Shown here piece after piece: positions 8,593 to 32,561 of a DNA stretch of 32,766 nt. The DNA comes from Gammaproteobacteria bacterium (lineage in GTDB: Bacteria; Pseudomonadota; Gammaproteobacteria; Xanthomonadales; Wenzhouxiangellaceae): NCBI GenBank assembly GCA_003567685.1, contig PWYW01000019.1, forward strand, positions 1 through 32,766, in the 5' to 3' direction. The position numbers and the translations under genes were made by a program. Below the pieces are notes generated by a model, which was given only the letters and a program-made list of their open reading frames with translations, was not told where the DNA came from and did no database searches. Each line of letters opens with the position of its first letter. Position 1 is the first letter of the stretch.

Positions 8593-8642
8593 GGCGCTGT
8601 CTCCGTCACGTCGTCGTTCGTGTCTCATCCGACCCGAATGTC

Positions 8643-9305
8643 TCAGGCCGGTTCCGCATCGTCCTGCTGCCCGGGTGAAGCGCGCTTGACAGCGTCCAGT
8701 GCAAGCAGGTTCTGGTTGACTTGCCGGATGATCGGCATGTCATCCAGATTACAAGCGAACCGTTCTGCATTATAGACCTGCGGTACCATGCAGCAATCGG
8801 CCAGAGTTATCTCATTGCCAAAGCAGTACCGCCCGGCATGCGGTTCGATTATGGCCTCGATGGCCCGCAGGCCCGATTCAGTCCAGTGCCGATACCAGCC
8901 CAACTTGGCTTCCTCGGTCAGGCCCAGATCCTTGACCAGATATTTCAACACCCGCAAGTTGTTGAGTGGGTGGATGTCGCAGGCCATTGCCTGGGCGACG
9001 GCCCGAACCTGCGCGCGTCGGGCAGGCTCGTCCGGCAGCAGGGCCGGCGAGGGCGCGATGTCTTCCAGGTATTCCAGCATGGCCATCGACTGGCTGATGA
9101 CCGTATCGCCATGGACCAGCGTCGGCACCAGTTGCTGCGGATTCAGCGCCGTGTAGTCCGCCGAAAACTGCTGCCCCCCATCGCGCACCAGATGCACCGG
9201 CTCAAGCCGATACGCCAGCCCCTTAAGGTTCAGCGCCATTCGAACGCGATAGCTGGCCGACGAGCGCCAGTAGGAGTAGAGGACTAGTGATGGGTTACGA
9301 GACAC
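8643..9305 (-). CDS. maiA: Maleylacetoacetate isomerase (zeta-class glutathione transferase)
   Basis: 220 aa, standard length. The zeta-class active-site motif is present as SSASYRVRMALNLKG (residues ~15-29). Many family members have Cys where this has Ala, but Ser14/Ser15-type residues remain. The thioredoxin-like half continues with NPQQLVPTLVHGD and SQSMAMLEYLE, and the helical half contains WTESGLRAIEA and LADCCMVPQVYNA. It converts 4-maleylacetoacetate to 4-fumarylacetoacetate, the penultimate step of tyrosine breakdown. The start is GTG at 9305 without an evident Shine-Dalgarno. It is the last gene of the hppD-hmgA-fah-maiA run. Its gap from fah is filled by a repeat hairpin. Confidence 0.93.
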   Translation of the reverse strand: MSRNPSLVLYSYWRSSASYRVRMALNLKGLAYRLEPVHLVRDGGQQFSADYTALNPQQLVPTLVHGDTVISQSMAMLEYLEDIAPSPALLPDEPARRAQVRAVAQAMACDIHPLNNLRVLKYLVKDLGLTEEAKLGWYRHWTESGLRAIEAIIEPHAGRYCFGNEITLADCCMVPQVYNAERFACNLDDMPIIRQVNQNLLALDAVKRASPGQQDDAEPA

Positions 9306-9344
9306 GGGCAGTTACCGGTTTTTTTCTGAGGGGCGGAAAAAGCT

Positions 9345-9424
9345 AAAAGGTGAGAGGTAAGAGGCACAAGCCCGAAAGGGCTCGTGCCCGTATTCCTTTC
9401 ACCTTTTACTTCTCACTTTTCACC
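9345..9424. repeat. Heptad-repeat hairpin between fah and maiA
   Basis: Left arm (9345-9364) is AAAAGGTGAGAGGTAAGAGG. A central stem GCACAAGCCC-GAAA-GGGCTCGTGC (9364-9387, one mismatch) follows. The right arm (9395-9424) is built from TTTCACC, TTTTACT, TCTCACT and TTTCACC units, the reverse-complement type. The right arm overlaps the last codons and stop of fah (Gly-Glu-Lys-stop at 9413-9424). The central stem with a pyrimidine tail could also act as a terminator on the minus strand. Confidence 0.75.
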
Positions 9425-10402
9425 GTACTTAACAACCTTCTGTTCGATCGCGCCGAAAATCGACTCGCCGTCTTTCGATTTCATGTCAATGCGCACGGTG
9501 TCGCCGAACTGCATGAACGGGGTTTCCGGCTTGCCGTTGGCGATGATTTCCAGCATGCGCTTTTCGGCCAGGCAGGAAGCGCCCTTGCCGGTGTCCTGGT
9601 TGGCGATGGTGCCCGAGCCCAGCAGGGTGCCGGCGGCCAGCGGACGGGTCTTGGCGGCATGGGCCAGCAGCTCGGCAAAAGAGAACTGCATGTCTTCGCC
9701 GGCTTCCGGTTCGCCGAACAATTTGCCGTTCAGGTGGGTGAGCAGCGGCAGGTGCAGCTTGCAGTCCTGCCAGGCGTCGCCCAGCTCGTCGGGTGTGACG
9801 ACCACCGGGGCCAGCGCCGAACGCGGCTTGGACTGCAGGAAACCAAAGCCCTTGGCCAGTTCGCCCGGAATCAGGTTTCTCAATGAGACATCATTCAGGA
9901 TGGTGACCAGCTGTATGTGCTCGGCGCATTCGGCCGGGCTGGCGCCCATCGGCACGTCATCGGTGATCACGCCGATCTCGGATTCGAAATCGATACCCCA
10001 CTCGGTTGAGGCCATGGCGATGTCGTCGCGCGGGCCCATGAAACCGTCCGATACGGCCTGGTACATCAAGGGATCGGTGAAAAAGCTCTCGGGCACCTCG
10101 GCGCCGCGGGCCTTGCGCACCCGCTCGACGTGCGGCAGGTAGGCCGAGCCGTCGACGAACTGGTAGCAGCGCGGCAAGGGGGCGGCCAGCGCGTTCAGGT
10201 CCAGCGCAAAGCTGTCTGCGGCCGAGCCGGCGTTGAGTTCGTCATACAGCGTATTCAGGCGCGGCGCGGTCTGCTGCCAGTTGTCCAGCGCGGACTGCAG
10301 GGTCGGCGCAATGCCGGTCGCCTTGACAGCGCGGCTCAGGTCGCGCGAAACCACGACCAACGTGCCGTCGCGCCCGCCTTCTTTCAGTGTTGCCAGTTTC
10401 AT
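9413..10402 (-). CDS. Fumarylacetoacetate hydrolase family protein
   Basis: 329 aa from the ATG at 10402 (MKLATLKEGGRDG). Longer readings run into repeat DNA. The FAH catalytic domain is clear: the metal-binding stretch GIDFESEIGVITDDVP, then LNDVSLRNL, GFGFLQSKPRSALAP and LLGSGTIANQD. It should cleave fumarylacetoacetate to fumarate and acetoacetate, the final step of tyrosine catabolism. The ~330-aa form with an N-terminal FAA_hydrolase_N-like region is common in bacteria, while vertebrate FAH is longer. Its last three residues and stop codon lie inside the heptad repeat, so the C-terminus seems to have been shaped by the repeat. Co-directional with hmgA and maiA. Confidence 0.92.
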   Translation of the reverse strand: MKLATLKEGGRDGTLVVVSRDLSRAVKATGIAPTLQSALDNWQQTAPRLNTLYDELNAGSAADSFALDLNALAAPLPRCYQFVDGSAYLPHVERVRKARGAEVPESFFTDPLMYQAVSDGFMGPRDDIAMASTEWGIDFESEIGVITDDVPMGASPAECAEHIQLVTILNDVSLRNLIPGELAKGFGFLQSKPRSALAPVVVTPDELGDAWQDCKLHLPLLTHLNGKLFGEPEAGEDMQFSFAELLAHAAKTRPLAAGTLLGSGTIANQDTGKGASCLAEKRMLEIIANGKPETPFMQFGDTVRIDMKSKDGESIFGAIEQKVVKYGEK

Positions 10403-10443
10403 GTATTTGAAGCTCCCGGATGTTTGTTGGTTTCTTGCGATGA

Positions 10444-10530
10444 GGAAGAGGGGAGACGGAAGAGGTGAGACGGGAAGGGTGTCGTGAGACCGGTGCTTTT
10501 CCGTCTCCCGTCTTCCCTCTCCCGTCTTCC
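10444..10530. repeat. Heptad-repeat inverted arms between hmgA and fah
   Basis: Left arm (10444-10473) reads GGAAGAG GGGAGAC GGAAGAG then GTGAGAC. The right arm (10501-10530) is the reverse complement type, CCGTCTC CCGTCTT CCCTCTC then CCGTCTT. The arms match at about 26 of 30 positions with a 27-base loop. It begins 6 bases past the hmgA stop on the minus strand. Confidence 0.78.
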
Positions 10531-10535
10531 AGCCT

Positions 10536-11657
10536 TCAGCCTTTCCAGCTATCGACGTAGCCGGTCCATTCGATCTTCTCGGCGTCTGCCGTGACATCCA
10601 GAGCGTCGCGGGTATCGATCATCACTGCCACCTCGGCAGTGGCTTCGGCCTTGGGCTTGAAGGCATTGTTCAGCGCTTTCGGATGCGGGCCGTGGGTGAA
10701 TCCGCAGGGGTGCAGGCTCATCATGCCGGGGTGGATGTTGTCACGCGAGAAGAAATCGCCGGCGTGGTAGAAAATCAGCTCGTCGTAGTCGTCGTTGTTG
10801 TGGAAAAACGGCACTTTCAGCGCTTCCGGGTCGGTCTCGAACGGGCGCGGCACGAAGGTGCAGATCACGAAGCGATGGGCAACAAAGGTGGTGTGCGCCG
10901 ACGGCGGCAGGTGATAGCGATGGCTCATCAGCGGTCGGATATCGCGCCAGTTCACCTTGACCGGCACCAGATCGCCCTTCCAGCCCTTGGCGTCGAGCGG
11001 GTTGAACGGGTAGGTGATGGTCGAGAGTTGGTTGCGCCGCTTGACCACCACTTTCCATTCCTGTTCGCCCTGCTGGGCCTTGAACGCGTCGTTGATCCTG
11101 GGCGTGTCCAGCATGGCCGGGTCGAAGATGGCATGCGGGCCCACCAGGCCTTTGTCAGGCAGCATGTAGCTGGAATTGGTCGCCTCGACCAGCAACAGCT
11201 TGGCCGGCTGGTCGGACTCGATGCGCCACATCGTGCCGCGCGGCACCACGATGTAGTCGCCATCGCGGAAGCTCATATGCCCGTAGTCGCAGAACAGATC
11301 GCCGGCGCCTTCGTGGATGAACAGCAACTCATCGCCGTCGGAATTGCGGGCCAGACTGTCCATGCGGCCCGAGCAGGTCCAGCTACGGATGCGCGTGTGG
11401 GCGTTATTCATCAGCTCCGTCGCCGCCCAGGGTGTCTGGCTGTGGGCATCGATTTTGGTGGTGTCGAAGGCACGCGGTCGCAGCGGCCCTTCGAAATCAC
11501 TCCAGCCGGTCGGCGGGTGGGTGTGGTACATGTGCGAAGCGGGGCCGAAAAACCCTTCCTTGCCCAGCTCGCGCTCGAACGTGCCCTCGGGCAGATCGCA
11601 ATGCGCCTGCCGCGACGACTCGCCTTCAACCTTGGGATGCGTGATCCAGTTTTTCAT
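10536..11657 (-). CDS. hmgA: Homogentisate 1,2-dioxygenase (short bacterial form)
   Basis: 373 aa from the ATG at 11657 (MKNWITHPKVEG). This non-haem iron enzyme opens the aromatic ring of homogentisate to maleylacetoacetate. Cupin-type signatures include GDELLFIHEGAGD (108-120) and YIVVPRGTMWRIE. Likely Fe ligands are His286 (FFHNN), Glu293 (DYDEL) and His322 (THGPHP), assigned by pattern to the human H335/E341/H371 triad. It is shorter than the ~430-aa Pseudomonas/human type and resembles the ~380-aa marine-gammaproteobacterial form. It sits between hppD and fah in pathway order, and repeat hairpins flank it on both sides. Confidence 0.9.
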   Translation of the reverse strand: MKNWITHPKVEGESSRQAHCDLPEGTFERELGKEGFFGPASHMYHTHPPTGWSDFEGPLRPRAFDTTKIDAHSQTPWAATELMNNAHTRIRSWTCSGRMDSLARNSDGDELLFIHEGAGDLFCDYGHMSFRDGDYIVVPRGTMWRIESDQPAKLLLVEATNSSYMLPDKGLVGPHAIFDPAMLDTPRINDAFKAQQGEQEWKVVVKRRNQLSTITYPFNPLDAKGWKGDLVPVKVNWRDIRPLMSHRYHLPPSAHTTFVAHRFVICTFVPRPFETDPEALKVPFFHNNDDYDELIFYHAGDFFSRDNIHPGMMSLHPCGFTHGPHPKALNNAFKPKAEATAEVAVMIDTRDALDVTADAEKIEWTGYVDSWKG

Positions 11658-11679
11658 AAACTTGCTCCGTTGTCGCTGG

Positions 11680-11749
11680 GCGGTAAGAGGTGAGAGGTGA
11701 AAGGTAAAAGGCAGCCGCCTTTCTCCTTTCACTCTTTACCTTTCACCGC
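11680..11749. repeat. Heptad-repeat hairpin between hppD and hmgA
   Basis: Two 33-base arms (11680-11712 and 11717-11749) separated by 4 bases, matching at 25 of 33 positions. The left arm has units GTAAGAG GTGAGAG then GTGAAAG GTAAAAG; the right arm is their complement type. It starts 2 bases after the hppD stop on the minus strand and ends 22 bases before the hmgA ATG, so it fills nearly the whole gap. Confidence 0.82.
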
Positions 11750-11751
11750 TC

Positions 11752-12798
11752 CTAGAGAACTCCGCGCTGTTCCTGGTCGCGTTCGATGGCTTCGAACAGG
11801 GCCTGGAAGTTGCCTTCGCCGAAGCCTTCATTGCCCTTGCGCTGGATGATTTCGAAGAAGATCGGGCCGATGTTGGTCTGGGTGAAGATCTGCAGCAGCT
11901 GCTTGCCCGGGTCATTGACGTCGGCGTCGATCAGGATCTTGTTCTTGCGCATGCGCGGCACGTCTTCGCCGTGGTTGGGAATGCGCTGGTCGATCACGTC
12001 AAAGTAGGTGTCGGGCGTGTTGAGGAAATCGATGCCATTGGCGCGCAGCGCTTCGACCGACTCGTACACGTTGTCGGAATACAGGGCGATGTGCTGTACG
12101 CCTTCGCCCTTGTACTCGTTCAGGTATTCGTTGATCTGGCTTTTCGGGTCTTCCGACTCGTTGATCGGAATCGAGATGGCACCGGTCGGCGAGGTCATGG
12201 CCTTGGATTTCAGGCCGGTTGCCTTGCCCTTGATGTCGAAGTACTTGACTTCGAAGAAGCCGAAGATCTTGTCGTAGAAGTCCGCCCACTCGCCCATGTT
12301 GCCGTTGTACACGTTATGGGTAAGGTGATCGATAAAGGTCAGGCCCACGCCCTTGGGGTTGCGCTCGACCGCCGGGTCGAAGTCGAAGTCTTTTTCAACA
12401 TCTTCAATGCCGCGGGTCAGGTACAGCGCGCTGCCGCCGATGCCGCTGATGACCGGCGCGTCAATCGCCAGGGTGTCGGGCTTGTTGTCGATGGCCTTGG
12501 CGCCTTTGGAAAGCGCGGCTTCGCGGGCCTGGCCCGGGTCAGTCACGCGCAGGGCAAAACCGGTGCAGCTCGGGCCGTGAGCCTGGGCGAAGTCGCTGGC
12601 AAAGGAATCCGGCGTCTCGTTGACCAGGAAGTTGATGCCACCCTGGCGGTAAAGCGTCACCGGTCTCGATTTGTGCTTGGCCACGGCAGTGAAGCCCAGC
12701 TTGCCGAACAGGTCATGCAGCAGGCCGGCATCGGGGGCGGCGTATTCGATGAATTCAAACTGCTGGACTCCCAGCGGATTCGGGCGTTGTTCGCTCAT
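11752..12798 (-). CDS. hppD: 4-Hydroxyphenylpyruvate dioxygenase
   Basis: 348 aa from the ATG at 12798 (MSEQRPNPLGVQ), which has GAGGAG six bases upstream; an in-frame ATG at 12804 overlaps that site. It has two VOC (glyoxalase-like) halves. The predicted Fe(II) ligands are His158 (FIDHLTHNV), His236 (GVQHIALYS) and Glu316 (FFEIIQRKG), the standard HPPD triad. The C-terminal helix carries GFGEGNFQALFEAIE, typical of the family. It converts 4-hydroxyphenylpyruvate to homogentisate. First gene of the catabolic run; a promoter-like sequence and inverted repeat upstream face a divergent MarR gene, its likely regulator. Confidence 0.96.
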   Translation of the reverse strand: MSEQRPNPLGVQQFEFIEYAAPDAGLLHDLFGKLGFTAVAKHKSRPVTLYRQGGINFLVNETPDSFASDFAQAHGPSCTGFALRVTDPGQAREAALSKGAKAIDNKPDTLAIDAPVISGIGGSALYLTRGIEDVEKDFDFDPAVERNPKGVGLTFIDHLTHNVYNGNMGEWADFYDKIFGFFEVKYFDIKGKATGLKSKAMTSPTGAISIPINESEDPKSQINEYLNEYKGEGVQHIALYSDNVYESVEALRANGIDFLNTPDTYFDVIDQRIPNHGEDVPRMRKNKILIDADVNDPGKQLLQIFTQTNIGPIFFEIIQRKGNEGFGEGNFQALFEAIERDQEQRGVL

Positions 12799-12880
12799 GG
12801 CCATCTCCTCGTGATTCGCTTGTAAAAAGCCCGTTGGCGACCGCGTTAAGGCCGGCAGATCGGGCTTGCTAGTGCATCGG

Positions 12881-12909
12881 ATATTAGTTACATTTGAAAC
12901 CAAATTCAA
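12881..12909 (-). promoter_or_regulatory. Candidate hppD promoter
   Basis: Minus strand: TTGAAT (12909-12904), 17-base spacer, TAATAT (12886-12881). Each hexamer matches sigma-70 consensus at 4 of 6 positions. It lies 83-111 bases before the hppD ATG in the hppD/marR divergent gap. Confidence 0.5.
12884..12903. promoter_or_regulatory. Candidate MarR operator
   Basis: Imperfect 20-bp inverted repeat TTAGTTAC-ATTT-GAAACCAA (6 of 8 arm positions symmetric). It overlaps the -10 and spacer of the candidate hppD promoter, in an AT-rich patch of otherwise GC-rich DNA. A dimeric winged-helix repressor bound there would block transcription. Confidence 0.5.
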
Positions 12910-12928
12910 GCAAGGCCCTGTGAAGTCC

Positions 12929-13354
12929 ATGCTCGACCTTGATCGATTCCTGCCCTACCAGCTCTCCCGCCTGTCCAACCAGATCAGCCAGGGCATCGCC
13001 CAGACCTACGAGGCGAAATACGGCCTGAGCGTGACCGAATGGCGGGTGATTGCCATCCTTGGGCGTTATCCCGGCATCTCGGCGACCGAAATCGCCGAGA
13101 AATCGGCCATGGACAAGGTTGCCATCAGCCGCGCGGTGCGCCGACTGATCGATGCCGGCCGGGTCCGCCGTCAGGCCAATGACCAGGACCGCCGGGCCAA
13201 GCACCTGTATTTGAGCGATGAAGGCCAGACGGTCTTCGATGCCATCGTCCCGGCCGCCCTGGCTTACGAGCAGCGCTTGCTCGATGCTCTGAGCGACGAG
13301 GAAAAAAACCAGCTCGACCGTCTGCTGGCCCGCCTGACTGAACTAAGCGGTTGA
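12929..13354 (+). CDS. MarR-family transcriptional regulator
   Basis: 141 aa from the ATG at 12929 (MLDLDRFLPYQLSRL). A GTG three codons upstream (12920) is possible. The winged helix-turn-helix is clear: LSVTEWRVIAILGRYPGISA (positioning helices), TEIAEKSAMDKVAISRAVRR (recognition region), then the wing GRVRRQANDQDRRAKHLYLS. N- and C-terminal helices form the dimer interface. MarR proteins usually repress and are relieved by aromatic ligands. Divergence from hppD with an inverted repeat between suggests local control of tyrosine catabolism, as for HmgR/HpaR-type regulators, but the ligand is unknown. Confidence 0.9.
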   Translation: MLDLDRFLPYQLSRLSNQISQGIAQTYEAKYGLSVTEWRVIAILGRYPGISATEIAEKSAMDKVAISRAVRRLIDAGRVRRQANDQDRRAKHLYLSDEGQTVFDAIVPAALAYEQRLLDALSDEEKNQLDRLLARLTELSG

Positions 13355-13384
13355 TCGAGCTGGCCGTCGGTCAGGGATGTGACT

Positions 13385-13411
13385 AACCGCGAAGGCGCAA
13401 AGAGCGCGAAG
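13385..13411 (+). repeat. Degenerate 9-bp tandem repeat after marR
   Basis: AACCGCGAA GGCGCAAAG then AGCGCGAAG, three purine-rich nonamers starting 31 bases after the marR stop. Similar nonamers occur at 18903-18938 and, inverted, at 19392-19409. Confidence 0.5.
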
Positions 13412-13468: not shown

Positions 13469-13750
13469 GCCTCTGGATGGCTTCGAGCATCCGGTGGCGC
13501 CAGGTGCTTCGGGCCGGCCGGGGCGCTCGGCTTGCTGGCCAGGGGCAGGTTGACGGGAGCCAAGGTGACCTCGAGATCACAATGTCTAAGTGGACGGATT
13601 CGCGACCTCCTTGAGCTTTCACCCAGCGGATGGAGGCTGATGGCTACCGGGAAGCGTCCGCGCCCCGGCCGGCCCGAATCCCCTAACGCCCCCCGATGCA
13701 GCAGGCTGAGAGATCGCAGGAGGGGTCAAACCCGCCCTTTCCTCTAAACC
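13469..13750 (+). repeat. ~280-bp dispersed intergenic repeat, copy A
   Basis: Direct repeat of 19011-19289. Long identical blocks include GAGCATCCGGTGGCGCCAGG (13485 on), the 16-bp near-palindrome GTGACCTCGAGATCAC (13565-13580), GGGAAGCGTCCGCGC and CCCCCCGATGCAGCAGGCTG. The copy also folds on itself: 19 bases TTCGGGCCGGCCGGGGCGC at 13508-13526 are exactly inverted at 13660-13678. Open frames cross it, but the two copies do not preserve a common complete frame with a start and end, so I treat it as non-coding repeat DNA or a structured RNA rather than a gene. Confidence 0.85.
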
Positions 13751-16394: not shown

Positions 16395-17161
16395 TGATTG
16401 ACACCCAGCCCCCGCTCGCACCGTCGGGCGGGGCGCTCGACATTGTCTACCGAGATCAGTGGCTGTGCGCCGTCAACAAGCCCTGCGGCTTGATGGTGCA
16501 CCGCAGCAACCGCGGTACCGACAAGCGCTTCGCCATGCAGTTGTTGCGCGACCAGCTGGGCCAGCGAGTCTTTCCCATCCATCGGCTGGATCGGGCCACA
16601 TCGGGCCTGCTGCTGTTCGCGCTGGATGCCGATTCGGCGGCTCACCTGGGCGAGCAGATGATGGCCCGCAGCGTGACCAAACGCTACCTGGCGGTGGTAC
16701 GCGGTTACCTAGACGACGAGGGCCTGATCGACCACCCGCTGGCACCCGACGGCAAGGGGCCGGAGAAGGACGCGCGCACGCGTTACCGCTGCCTGGCGCG
16801 CATCGAGCTGCCGTTTGCCGTGGGCCGCTACGCCACCAGTCGCTATTCCTTGGCCGTGGCCGAACCGGAAACCGGCCGTATGCACCAGATTCGCCGCCAC
16901 TTCAAACATCTCTTTCATCCCATCATCGGCGATACCACCTACGGCGAGGGCCGCCACAACCGGCTGTTCCGCCAGCACTTCGGCTGCCACCGCCTGCTGC
17001 TGCATGCCTGGCAGCTGGCCGTCGACCACCCCGGGGATGGCCGCCGTCTCGAACTCACGGCGCCGCCGGGCGAGGAATTCGAGCGGGTGATTGACCGGTT
17101 TGGAGAGGTCGACGGCTTGCCTCCACTATCGGGTGGAGGGCCTGGTGTTTCGGGCCGTTGA
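16394..17161 (+). CDS. truC: TruC-type tRNA pseudouridine synthase (RluA family)
   Basis: 255 aa from a GTG that overlaps the previous stop (TAGTG). RluA-family pseudouridine synthase: catalytic Asp66 in HRLDRATSGLLLF, the N-terminal VNKPCGLMVHRS, the later TKRYLAVVRGYL, and the binding motif GRMHQIRRHFKHLFHPIIGD. MVHRS, the RDQLGQRVF block and the LFHPIIGDTTYGEGRHN region resemble E. coli TruC, which makes pseudouridine 65 in tRNA, more than RluC/RluD; no S4 domain is present. The last codons lie inside the left arm of an inverted repeat (17135-17156), so the C-terminal tail LSGGGPGVSGR probably comes from repeat invasion. Confidence 0.87.
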   Translation: MIDTQPPLAPSGGALDIVYRDQWLCAVNKPCGLMVHRSNRGTDKRFAMQLLRDQLGQRVFPIHRLDRATSGLLLFALDADSAAHLGEQMMARSVTKRYLAVVRGYLDDEGLIDHPLAPDGKGPEKDARTRYRCLARIELPFAVGRYATSRYSLAVAEPETGRMHQIRRHFKHLFHPIIGDTTYGEGRHNRLFRQHFGCHRLLLHAWQLAVDHPGDGRRLELTAPPGEEFERVIDRFGEVDGLPPLSGGGPGVSGR

Positions 17162-17334
17162 GGTGAAGCCGAAGCGCACAGGGCCGGGCGGACAAGGGCC
17201 GCCGTTGTTTGAGCGAAGCGCCTGAAAAGGCGCGTAGCGAGTTTAGGCGGACCCCGCACGGAACGAGCACTGCAGGGGATCGGCCGCCCGACAGGGCGGG
17301 CGACGAACCGTGGGCCCGCAACACCAGGCCCTCC
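17135..17334. repeat. 200-bp unit bounded by 22-bp inverted repeats, overlapping the truC end
   Basis: Arms GGAGGGCCTGGTGTTTCGGG (17135 on) and its complement at 17313-17334 match at 21 of 22 positions. The left arm covers the last truC codons. The interior contains GTTGTTTGAGCGAAGCG and GGCGCGTAGCGAGTTTAGGC, a type of sequence seen after genes in various gammaproteobacteria. A small hairpin CCTCCAC/GTGGAGG (17120-17139) abuts the left arm. Confidence 0.7.
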
Positions 17335-17399
17335 AGGCGCCCACCAGCGACTACACTGTGGACAGTGTTTCGCGCCGCGGACAATCCGGCGCAAGACAA

Positions 17400-19010: not shown

Positions 19011-19289
19011 GCCTGTAGAGGACTCCGAGCATCCGGTGGCGCCAGGTGCTTCGGGCCAACCGGGGCGTTCGGCTGGCTTGCCAGGTGAAGGTTCTCGGGA
19101 GCTTAAGTGACCTCGAGATCACACCGTAAGAGCGGACGGATTCACGACTTCCTTGAGCTTTCATCCGGCGGATAGCGGCTGATGGCTGCCGGGAAGCGTC
19201 CGCGCACCGGCCGGCCCGAAGCACCTAACGCCCCCCGATGCAGCAGGCTGAAAGATCGCAGGGGGCGAAACCGCCCTTTCCTCAAAACC
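19011..19289 (+). repeat. ~280-bp dispersed intergenic repeat, copy B
   Basis: Direct copy of 13469-13750, with the identical core GTGACCTCGAGATCAC (19107-19122), the same order of conserved blocks, and the internal inversion of AGGTGCTTCGGGCC seen near 19039 and 19217. Differences from copy A are scattered substitutions and small indels, so the copies are not recent. It is followed by CCAGCAGCCGGCACCACT, found in copy A only after the inserted 205-bp unit. Confidence 0.85.
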
Positions 19290-20099: not shown

Positions 20100-20158
20100 T
20101 GAATTGATGGCCTCTTGTTCGTCATGTCTTGCCCCACTGGCTTGACCCGCAACTGTTG

Positions 20159-20188
20159 CCTTTCACGTTTTCCCTTTTACCTTTTACC
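20159..20188 (-). repeat. Heptad repeat array after the 3-hydroxybutyrate dehydrogenase gene
   Basis: Plus-strand units TTTCACG, TTTTCCC, TTTTACC, TTTTACC; on the transcribed strand it is GGTAAAAGGTAAAAGGG-like. It ends 4 bases from the dehydrogenase stop codon (20193) and precedes the response regulator start. Confidence 0.7.
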
Positions 20189-29439: not shown

Positions 29440-29464
29440 GAAAAGGGCCCGCTGGGCCCTTTTC
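29440..29464 (+). terminator. Terminator after the BI-1 family gene
   Basis: Perfect 11-bp stem GAAAAGGGCCC-GCT-GGGCCCTTTTC. The U-rich part is inside the stem end. Located ~60 bases past the stop and before the rplY promoter. Confidence 0.8.
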
Positions 29465-29467
29465 GCC

Positions 29468-29496
29468 ATCTCCCGCCTCCCCTCTTCCTTCTCTCC
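29468..29496 (+). repeat. Degenerate pyrimidine heptad array upstream of rplY
   Basis: Units ATCTCCC GCCTCCC then CTCTTCC TTCTCTC. More degenerate than the other arrays but of the same period and strand bias. It sits between the BI-1 terminator and the rplY -10 box. Confidence 0.4.
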
Positions 29497-30937: not shown

Positions 30938-30953
30938 TCGGAACGCGCCCCGC

Positions 30954-30981
30954 CTTTTACCTTTTACCTTTTACCTTTTAC
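30954..30981 (+). repeat. Four perfect CTTTTAC heptads between pth and ychF
   Basis: CTTTTAC repeated four times without a mismatch, the cleanest array of the family. It ends 18 bases before the ychF ATG, so the transcript carries a pyrimidine tract just upstream of the ribosome site CAAGGA. Copy-number changes by slippage are possible. Confidence 0.85.
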
Positions 30982-30999
30982 CGTTCTCAAGGAACCACC

Positions 31000-32280: not shown

Positions 32281-32365
32281 GGAGGGGTACTCAAGCGGTC
32301 AACGAGGGCAGACTGTAAATCTGCTGGCTAAGCCTTCGCAGGTTCGAATCCTGCCCCCTCCACCA
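32281..32365 (+). tRNA. tRNA-Tyr (GUA)
   Basis: 85 nt including encoded CCA. Acceptor GGAGGGG/CCCCTCC, anticodon loop CTGTAAA with GTA, a long variable arm as expected for bacterial tRNA-Tyr, and a T loop GGTTCGAATCC. First of three tRNAs. Confidence 0.97.
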
Positions 32366-32395
32366 CTTATCCCGGCTTGGGAATCGCCAGGGTTT

Positions 32396-32469
<74 letters not shown>

Positions 32470-32485
32470 AAATGCAGAAAGACAG

Positions 32486-32561
<76 letters not shown>

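Follow-up and report, generated by a model that had tools for sequence, protein, structure and literature searches.

Introduction

The closest described relatives of the elements studied here are the heptameric repeats GGGAATC of Xanthomonas and GGGGA(C/T)T of Nostoc, which are intergenic, occur genome-wide and have no function assigned to them (Rehm et al. 2015, PMC4692102). Most of these repeats are found no more than 50 bp past a stop (coding strand) or ahead of a start (non-coding strand), and they are generally without mobile-element association; close convergent pairs of GGGAATC number 70 in the Xanthomonas genome abbreviated Xcc and 75 in Xac, and repeat length varies between the two species (PMC4692102). 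Here, we describe elements of this kind in a 32,766-nucleotide stretch of a gammaproteobacterial assembly of the family Wenzhouxiangellaceae (GCA_003567685.1, contig PWYW01000019.1, positions 1 to 32,766), hereafter called the window. Each of the three gaps in its tyrosine-degradation operon, hppD-hmgA-fah-maiA, holds a palindrome whose arms are arrays of degenerate 7-bp units (heptads).

The elements form a repeat class with a single layout: a short loop is flanked by two arrays that face each other, each made of a few degenerate 7-bp units, and the G-rich arm is 5' on either strand. Among periods, 7 stands out; the polarity is fixed, intergenic DNA holds scattered copies, and there are empty sites. 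The facing arms are usually of one unit family, and the unit changes between species at orthologous junctions. We consider it somewhat probable that the elements are a dispersed DNA-level palindromic repeat that is tolerated between genes, with mRNA hairpins as a by-product. Reports of one heptad per organism thus become a rule: the genus Wenzhouxiangella keeps the period and the G-arm-first layout while the seven letters vary, both between species and between neighbouring gaps. A fixed layout combined with a free unit weakens quadruplex and fixed-site explanations and poses the question of how 7-bp units of a single polarity are made and copied. A further warning is that a strong hairpin fold in an operon gap is not necessarily an RNA element.

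The Wenzhouxiangella elements are of the same kind as the Xanthomonas heptads, in another family of the order, and the two are alike in their tandem 7-bp units, mostly intergenic position, dispersal and facing close pairs (PMC4692102). The original prediction knew heptad repeats from cyanobacteria but none of this type here; the kind is already known in this order, where GGGAATC of Xanthomonas also forms facing pairs. The units are not the same, being GGGNATC there and GGTRARA, GGGAGAC, GGTTTCA and others here. Further differences from the published repeats are the many unit families, the unit change at orthologous junctions, the empty sites and the partly shared loop cores (PMC4692102).

The facing GGGAATC pattern was found in none of the 11 genomes of the genus examined for it. 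The repetitive extragenic palindromes (REP) and bacterial interspersed mosaic elements (BIME) of enterobacteria are short, scattered intergenic palindromes thought able to stabilise mRNA; they differ from the elements described here, whose arms are heptad arrays and whose host, the window's genome, has no match to Y1_Tnp, the REP-associated tyrosine transposase (RAYT) domain. Cyanobacterial heptanucleotide repeats, the short tandemly repeated repetitive (STRR) sequences, have tandem 7-bp units in common with ours. Three heptanucleotide repeats in Calothrix are mentioned in PMC4692102. The TAACTGA direct repeats of Beggiatoaceae, for which a translational role was suggested (MacGregor 2015, PMC4679880), resemble the Wenzhouxiangella elements in being abundant intergenic 7-mers of a gammaproteobacterium.

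Heptad-Armed Palindromes of the Tyrosine-Degradation Operon

The palindrome in the hppD-hmgA gap (11682..11747) has arms at 11682-11710 and 11719-11747 around a loop of about 8 bp, the one in the hmgA-fah gap (10444..10530) has arms at 10444-10478 and 10496-10530, and the one in the fah-maiA gap (9343..9423) has arms at 9343-9370 and 9395-9423; none is assigned to a strand. In each gap, the period-7 score was reached by 0 of 500 dinucleotide shuffles, so facing arrays of degenerate 7-bp units are present in all three gaps where they had been predicted. The ungapped inverted-repeat score, compared with 200 shuffles per gap, exceeded the shuffle maximum in the hppD-hmgA gap (17 vs. 11) and the hmgA-fah gap (23 vs. 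13) and only tied with the best shuffle in the fah-maiA gap (12 vs. 12).

Each gap had been thought to carry its own variant. The hmgA-fah gap does stand apart (GGGAGAC/GGAAGAC family), but there are two families rather than three: the hppD-hmgA and fah-maiA gaps share the GGTRARA family, in which GTGAAAG and GTGAGAG are intermixed. Both unit families of the window are also present at other places in the genome. The arms start 4 bp past the hppD stop and 5 bp past the hmgA stop, in agreement with the predicted distance of a few bases. Also as predicted, the last codons of fah are supplied by the array, since the right arm of 9343..9423 covers the fah stop and encodes a KYGEK C-terminus (...TAC GGT GAA AAG TGA); in 9 of the 12 congeners with a non-overlapping fah end, fah ends in YRR. 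The loop of the fah-maiA element contains an inner hairpin, GGCACAAGCCCGAAAGGGCTCGTGCC (9363..9388, no strand assigned), without a T-run. A scan of positions 8600-13400 for intrinsic terminators, i.e., a GC-rich stem with a T-run, listed three sites, none of which was in the three gaps.

All four genes lie on the minus strand: hppD (4-hydroxyphenylpyruvate dioxygenase, 11752..12930, with a Glyoxalase_5, HPPD N-terminal match and an uncertain start codon), hmgA (homogentisate 1,2-dioxygenase, 10536..11657), fah (fumarylacetoacetase, 9413..10402, with an FAA_hydrolase match) and a maiA-like glutathione S-transferase family gene (8643..9305, start codon uncertain), whose name is taken from the original prediction and the context. 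The nearest named relatives of HmgA were those of Wenzhouxiangella metagenome-assembled genomes and strains, at 84-88% identity, and we accordingly refer to the genus as Wenzhouxiangella.

Genome-Wide Occurrence

The window's own genome (G000; 2.74 Mb, 99.6% complete) contained 79 matches to a three-unit pattern with at most one mismatch, versus none for the reversed control. A detector free of any assumed unit found 23 intergenic period-7 segments in a sample of this genome versus 0.67 in shuffles of the sampled stretches, and 69 versus 1.67 in 600 kb of a congener (G019) from which stretches were drawn at regular steps. This enrichment over controls, which the original prediction had called for, means that the element is real and repeated. 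Neighbouring periods gave one (G000) and nine (G019) intergenic segments for period 6, and five and seven for period 8; coding DNA held 9 and 20 period-7 segments, respectively. A period-7 array was carried by 57 of 537 gaps in the evenly sampled G019 and by 20 of 210 gaps in the G000 sample, a frequency biased upward by the inclusion of the window.

The GTRARAG unit was patchy, being found in 14 of 61 searched genomes and 2 of 25 genera, and the facing GGTTTCA pattern was matched in 25 of 30 genomes of the genus; W. sediminis is one of the species with the GGTTTCA family. No intergenic segment was detected in the samples of 8 of 20 genomes (G018, G013, G005, G002, G006, G023, G007 and G029), which were small (4.6-40 kb). 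Some other loci of the order contained period-7 arrays, e.g., L062, L069 and L269; seven stretches totalling 66 kb, drawn from further genera of the window's family, had none, although one genome of that family (G030) had two overlapping GTRARAG matches. A few matches to the GGKTTCA pattern resemble coding sequence by eye. Among the titles listed in searches of open-licence papers, no report of such repeats in Wenzhouxiangella was found.

Arm Polarity and Unit Turnover

The G-rich arm precedes the C-rich arm in 48 of the 49 gaps with both arms. Facing pairs of score at least 10 were G-first in 60 of 64 cases, C-first in three and neutral in one, and a first, cruder pass over adjacent arms gave the orders G-C (32), C-G (2), G-G (4) and C-C (1). 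The ratio of facing to outward pattern matches was 231:0 for GGTRARA (facing matches in 8 of 30 genus genomes), 464:0 for GGKTTCA (25 of 30) and 20:0 for the Xanthomonas-type GGGAATC (matches in 8 of 121 genomes of the order); because matches overlap within an element, the elements are fewer than these counts. Single arms tended to lie on the side expected from the layout (G arms: 22 left, 6 right; C arms: 17 right, 6 left). The polarity was kept even where arms of different families shared a gap (L189, L185 and L284), and nested or mosaic arrays were present at L049, L187 and L195. Being identical on both strands, the layout holds no information on transcription direction.

Such a polarity could result from telomere-like end addition, in which a templated polymerase, or copying from some other array, would extend the two 3' ends in a broken or nicked gap with G-strand repeats before they are rejoined. 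This process would yield a G arm followed by a C arm for any unit, and it would fit the fixed polarity across families of unrelated units, its retention by mixed-family arms, the nested and mosaic arrays, and the single arms on the expected side. The telomere-like make-up of heptads such as GGTTTAA and GGGTTCA would fit as well. We nevertheless find the process very doubtful for these elements: the domain RVT_1 had no match in the window's genome or in five other genomes rich in arrays, the loop cores shared within the GGTTTCA family suggest whole-element copying, and an insertion point common to three species speaks against random breaks (all described below). Less probable still is the wider notion that Lysobacterales heptad palindromes are scars of telomere-like repeat addition at intergenic breaks, drawn from a heptad pool or template and then rejoined. 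If true, it would explain the single polarity of unrelated units, the chimeric or nested arms and the unit turnover at the same junction.

Turnover was assessed by eye in the orthologous gaps of Wenzhouxiangella loci. Heptad arrays were present in 8 of 16 hppD-hmgA gaps, 12 of 17 hmgA-fah gaps and 4 of 13 fah-maiA gaps, and L038, L044 and L046 had no array in any of the three. The units in these gaps were GGTTTCA (L051, L052), GGTTTAC/GGGTTCC (L040, L045), GGGTAGA (L042, L048), GGGGTCA/GGGACTA (L039), AGAAAAT (L053) and CAGTTGT (L047), and L049 had nested GGTTTAA and GGTTTCC arrays. L048 and L049, sister species on the tree, differed in their units in two gaps. At orthologous junctions, too, the period and the polarity stay fixed, whatever the sequence of the unit. 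In the fah-maiA gap of L108 (approximately 1905-2110), facing arms resembling 8-bp units (ACGCAGAG type) were seen by eye instead of heptads.

A DNA-structure or protein-binding element selected at gene borders, such as a G-quadruplex/i-motif or a nucleoid-protein site, is quite unlikely in view of this turnover and of the composition of the arms. The heptads of Xanthomonas and Nostoc form quadruplexes in vitro, according to Rehm et al. (PMC4692102), and a strand-symmetric signal fits a DNA-level role. However, arms with four GGG runs, the pattern for three-tetrad quadruplexes, were few (3 of 52 in G000, 12 of 88 in G019; four GG runs in 39 of 52 and 58 of 88), so the quadruplex explanation of the published heptads is not transferable to the Wenzhouxiangella arms, and we rejected it. 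As the unit sequence is not conserved between species, a protein would find no constant site in it.

Tests of an mRNA Role

The original prediction had proposed an mRNA-processing, stability or translation-insulating element. Such a stable hairpin, placed right behind the stop, would act as a barrier to 3'-5' exonucleases, as an attenuator of transcription or as a translational insulator between the operon's genes, a role also ascribed to REP/BIME elements. Part of this stands, in that the elements are real and the predicted RNA folds of the three gaps are strong (z = -5.45, -5.31 and -6.28; 0 of 200 shuffles as good). Element edges lay at a median of 5 bp from stop codons (70 edges), the operon has one element in each of its three gaps, and facing arrays occur at the same junctions across species despite the unit change; these points also favour an mRNA role.

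The expected enrichment at co-directional junctions, however, was not seen: in the samples of G000 and G019, arrays occurred at similar rates in gaps that were co-directional (50 of 462), convergent (12 of 118) and divergent (15 of 167). Among divergent gaps shorter than 150 bp, 1 of 67 had an array versus 29 of 385, a difference that was not significant (p = 0.10). If the element acted in mRNA, G-U would be expected to be better tolerated than A-C on the strand that is transcribed. With the 46 co-directional elements oriented accordingly, there were 87 G-U and 85 A-C mismatches, which counts against the RNA reading. Mean folding energies were -50.9 kcal/mol for the sense and -51.6 kcal/mol for the antisense strand (43 elements, the three over 260 bp being dropped), and the sense fold was stronger in 18 and weaker in 25 of the 43 (p = 0.43).

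Arm-specific covariation was absent as well, own arms matching no better than same-family arms elsewhere. Arm likeness within an element was 0.613 versus 0.643 for other elements of the same family in G019, and 0.57 versus 0.623 in G000; compared with arms drawn from all families, it was 0.561 versus 0.284 in G019 and, hardly better, 0.527 versus 0.477 in G000. A facing partner, counted only at a score of at least 10, was missing in 54 of 118 heptad gaps. One such gap, between the window's peptidyl-tRNA hydrolase and ychF-type GTPase genes, holds a single C-rich arm of about four CCTTTTA units (30953..30985, no strand assigned), for which no facing partner was seen. The absence of arrays from every operon gap of L038, L044 and L046, and from the hppD-hmgA gap of half of the loci (8 of 16, by eye), likewise counts against a role in the message. 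Selection at the RNA level is thus ruled against by the pair counts, the folds of the two strands and the arm comparison, all negative, and we regard an mRNA-level element as unlikely. A two-armed copy of the dispersed repeat would still place a stable hairpin after the stop codon of a transcript and may, like REP, mildly protect or slow the message; no sign of selection on such an effect was found.

Insertion, Loops and Machinery

An insert of 71-85 bp directly follows the hppD stop, at the same point, in the window, L042 and L043, while L040, L041 and L045 lack the hppD-hmgA insert, with 0-3 unaligned bp on the empty side. No target duplication was seen at this insert. On the tree, the empty L040, L041 and L045 form a subgroup inside the filled species (node support 0.978 and 0.915), the window's own placement having a support of only 0.624. 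This nesting implies that the insert was gained once and lost once, almost exactly, or else that it was gained repeatedly at a single point.

In the GGTTTCA family, a loop core of approximately 20 bp was common, by eye, to about 10 of 21 extracted elements. The motif CGAAGCC or its complement, chosen after the loops were inspected, occurred in 6 of 21 loops versus 0.13 expected from 165 kb of heptad-free gaps. We considered these cores as terminators and rejected this, as they are terminator-like on one strand but are found, by eye, in both orientations to genes.

The somewhat probable account of a dispersed, tolerated DNA repeat would work as follows. Copies would come in by insertion, in part as complete elements that include the loop; the arms would then expand and contract, and they may be homogenised or replaced through slippage and copying from same-family arrays elsewhere. 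Copies would persist between genes because there they neither break a reading frame nor bring a promoter or T-run terminator; in the window region, where this was checked, both of the latter were absent from the elements.

Several observations weigh against this account. The CGAAGCC core was in none of 19 G000 loops and in 3 of 31 G019 loops. Comparison of 14 G000 loops gave one weak cross hit, itself heptad-like, and thus did not show loop sharing for the window's families; in G019, comparing 29 whole loops produced 51 cross hits, of which the 15 listed are residual heptad sequence. A profile of the loop core was not significant in 2.2 Mb, where the best E-value (0.27) fell inside the L049 element and an outside-genus control reached 0.3. 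The genome G022, for all its 58 three-unit GTRARAG matches, yielded nothing with the facing-pair pattern. Elements lay at most 10 bp from a stop in 28 of 46 co-directional cases versus 17.6 expected under uniform placement (17 of 24 versus 15.5 in convergent gaps); this excess could mean function, and keeping the downstream ribosome-binding site explains it too. Finally, the window's genome had no match to Y1_Tnp and none to RVT_1, the one reverse transcriptase profile searched.

Across the genus, RVT_1 was found in 9 of 30 genomes and Y1_Tnp in 9 of 30. Eight genomes were array-rich, i.e., had more than 27 matches on a strand (G000, G009, G014, G019, G021, G022, G025 and G029); two of them had RVT_1 and three Y1_Tnp, the remaining 22 having seven and six, respectively. 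RVT_1 was also absent from the array-rich G014, G022, G025, G009 and G021, with G014, G009 and G021 being 73, 80 and 65% complete. A reverse transcriptase or a REP transposase was accordingly rejected as the driver: neither an RVT_1 nor a Y1_Tnp match was in the window's genome, and no excess was visible in array-rich genomes, where numbers are small. The search thus points to no known driver. DRT10 is a bacterial reverse transcriptase whose products are tandem repeats (PMC12632851); for a telomerase- or DRT10-like origin, the reverse transcriptase gene that it would call for had no RVT_1 match in G000.

Some neighbouring observations concern loops and reverse transcriptases in other loci. In G089, G047 and G125, an inner palindrome of the type AAGAGCG...CGCTCTT seems, by eye, to recur in the loops of several facing GGGAATC pairs and would then be the counterpart of the GGTTTCA family's core. 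In a convergent gap of L245 (approximately 2107-2182; G000:C58:4106-4181), the two heptad arms enclose a loop, AAAAAACCGGGCCATTGGCCCGGTTTTTT, that is palindromic and resembles a terminator, with runs of A and T. In G019, contig C1 has nine RVT_1 matches, four of equal score, within about 29 kb (3.792-3.821 Mb, with L227 there), where reverse transcriptase genes, or fragments of them, that resemble one another are clustered.

Other Features of the Window

Two more single arms were noted in the window, neither assigned to a strand. The first (20153..20188), C-rich on the plus strand, lies in the co-directional gap between a short-chain dehydrogenase and a response regulator gene. The second, a C-rich arm of GGGAGGC type (29467..29496), lies between the Bax1-I gene and that of ribosomal L25, directly after a hairpin at 29440-29464. 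An Rfam scan of the window returned tRNA and 5S only; the window ends hold a 5S rRNA gene and three tRNA genes (1-99 and 32281-32558). A second inverted-repeat element of about 213 bp is present in two copies, at 13487-13699 and 19029-19241, whose arms are nearly alike (GCATCCGGTGGCGCCAGGTGCTTCGGGCC...). It looks like a separate dispersed palindrome family, to which the sequence at 17134-17335 may be related.

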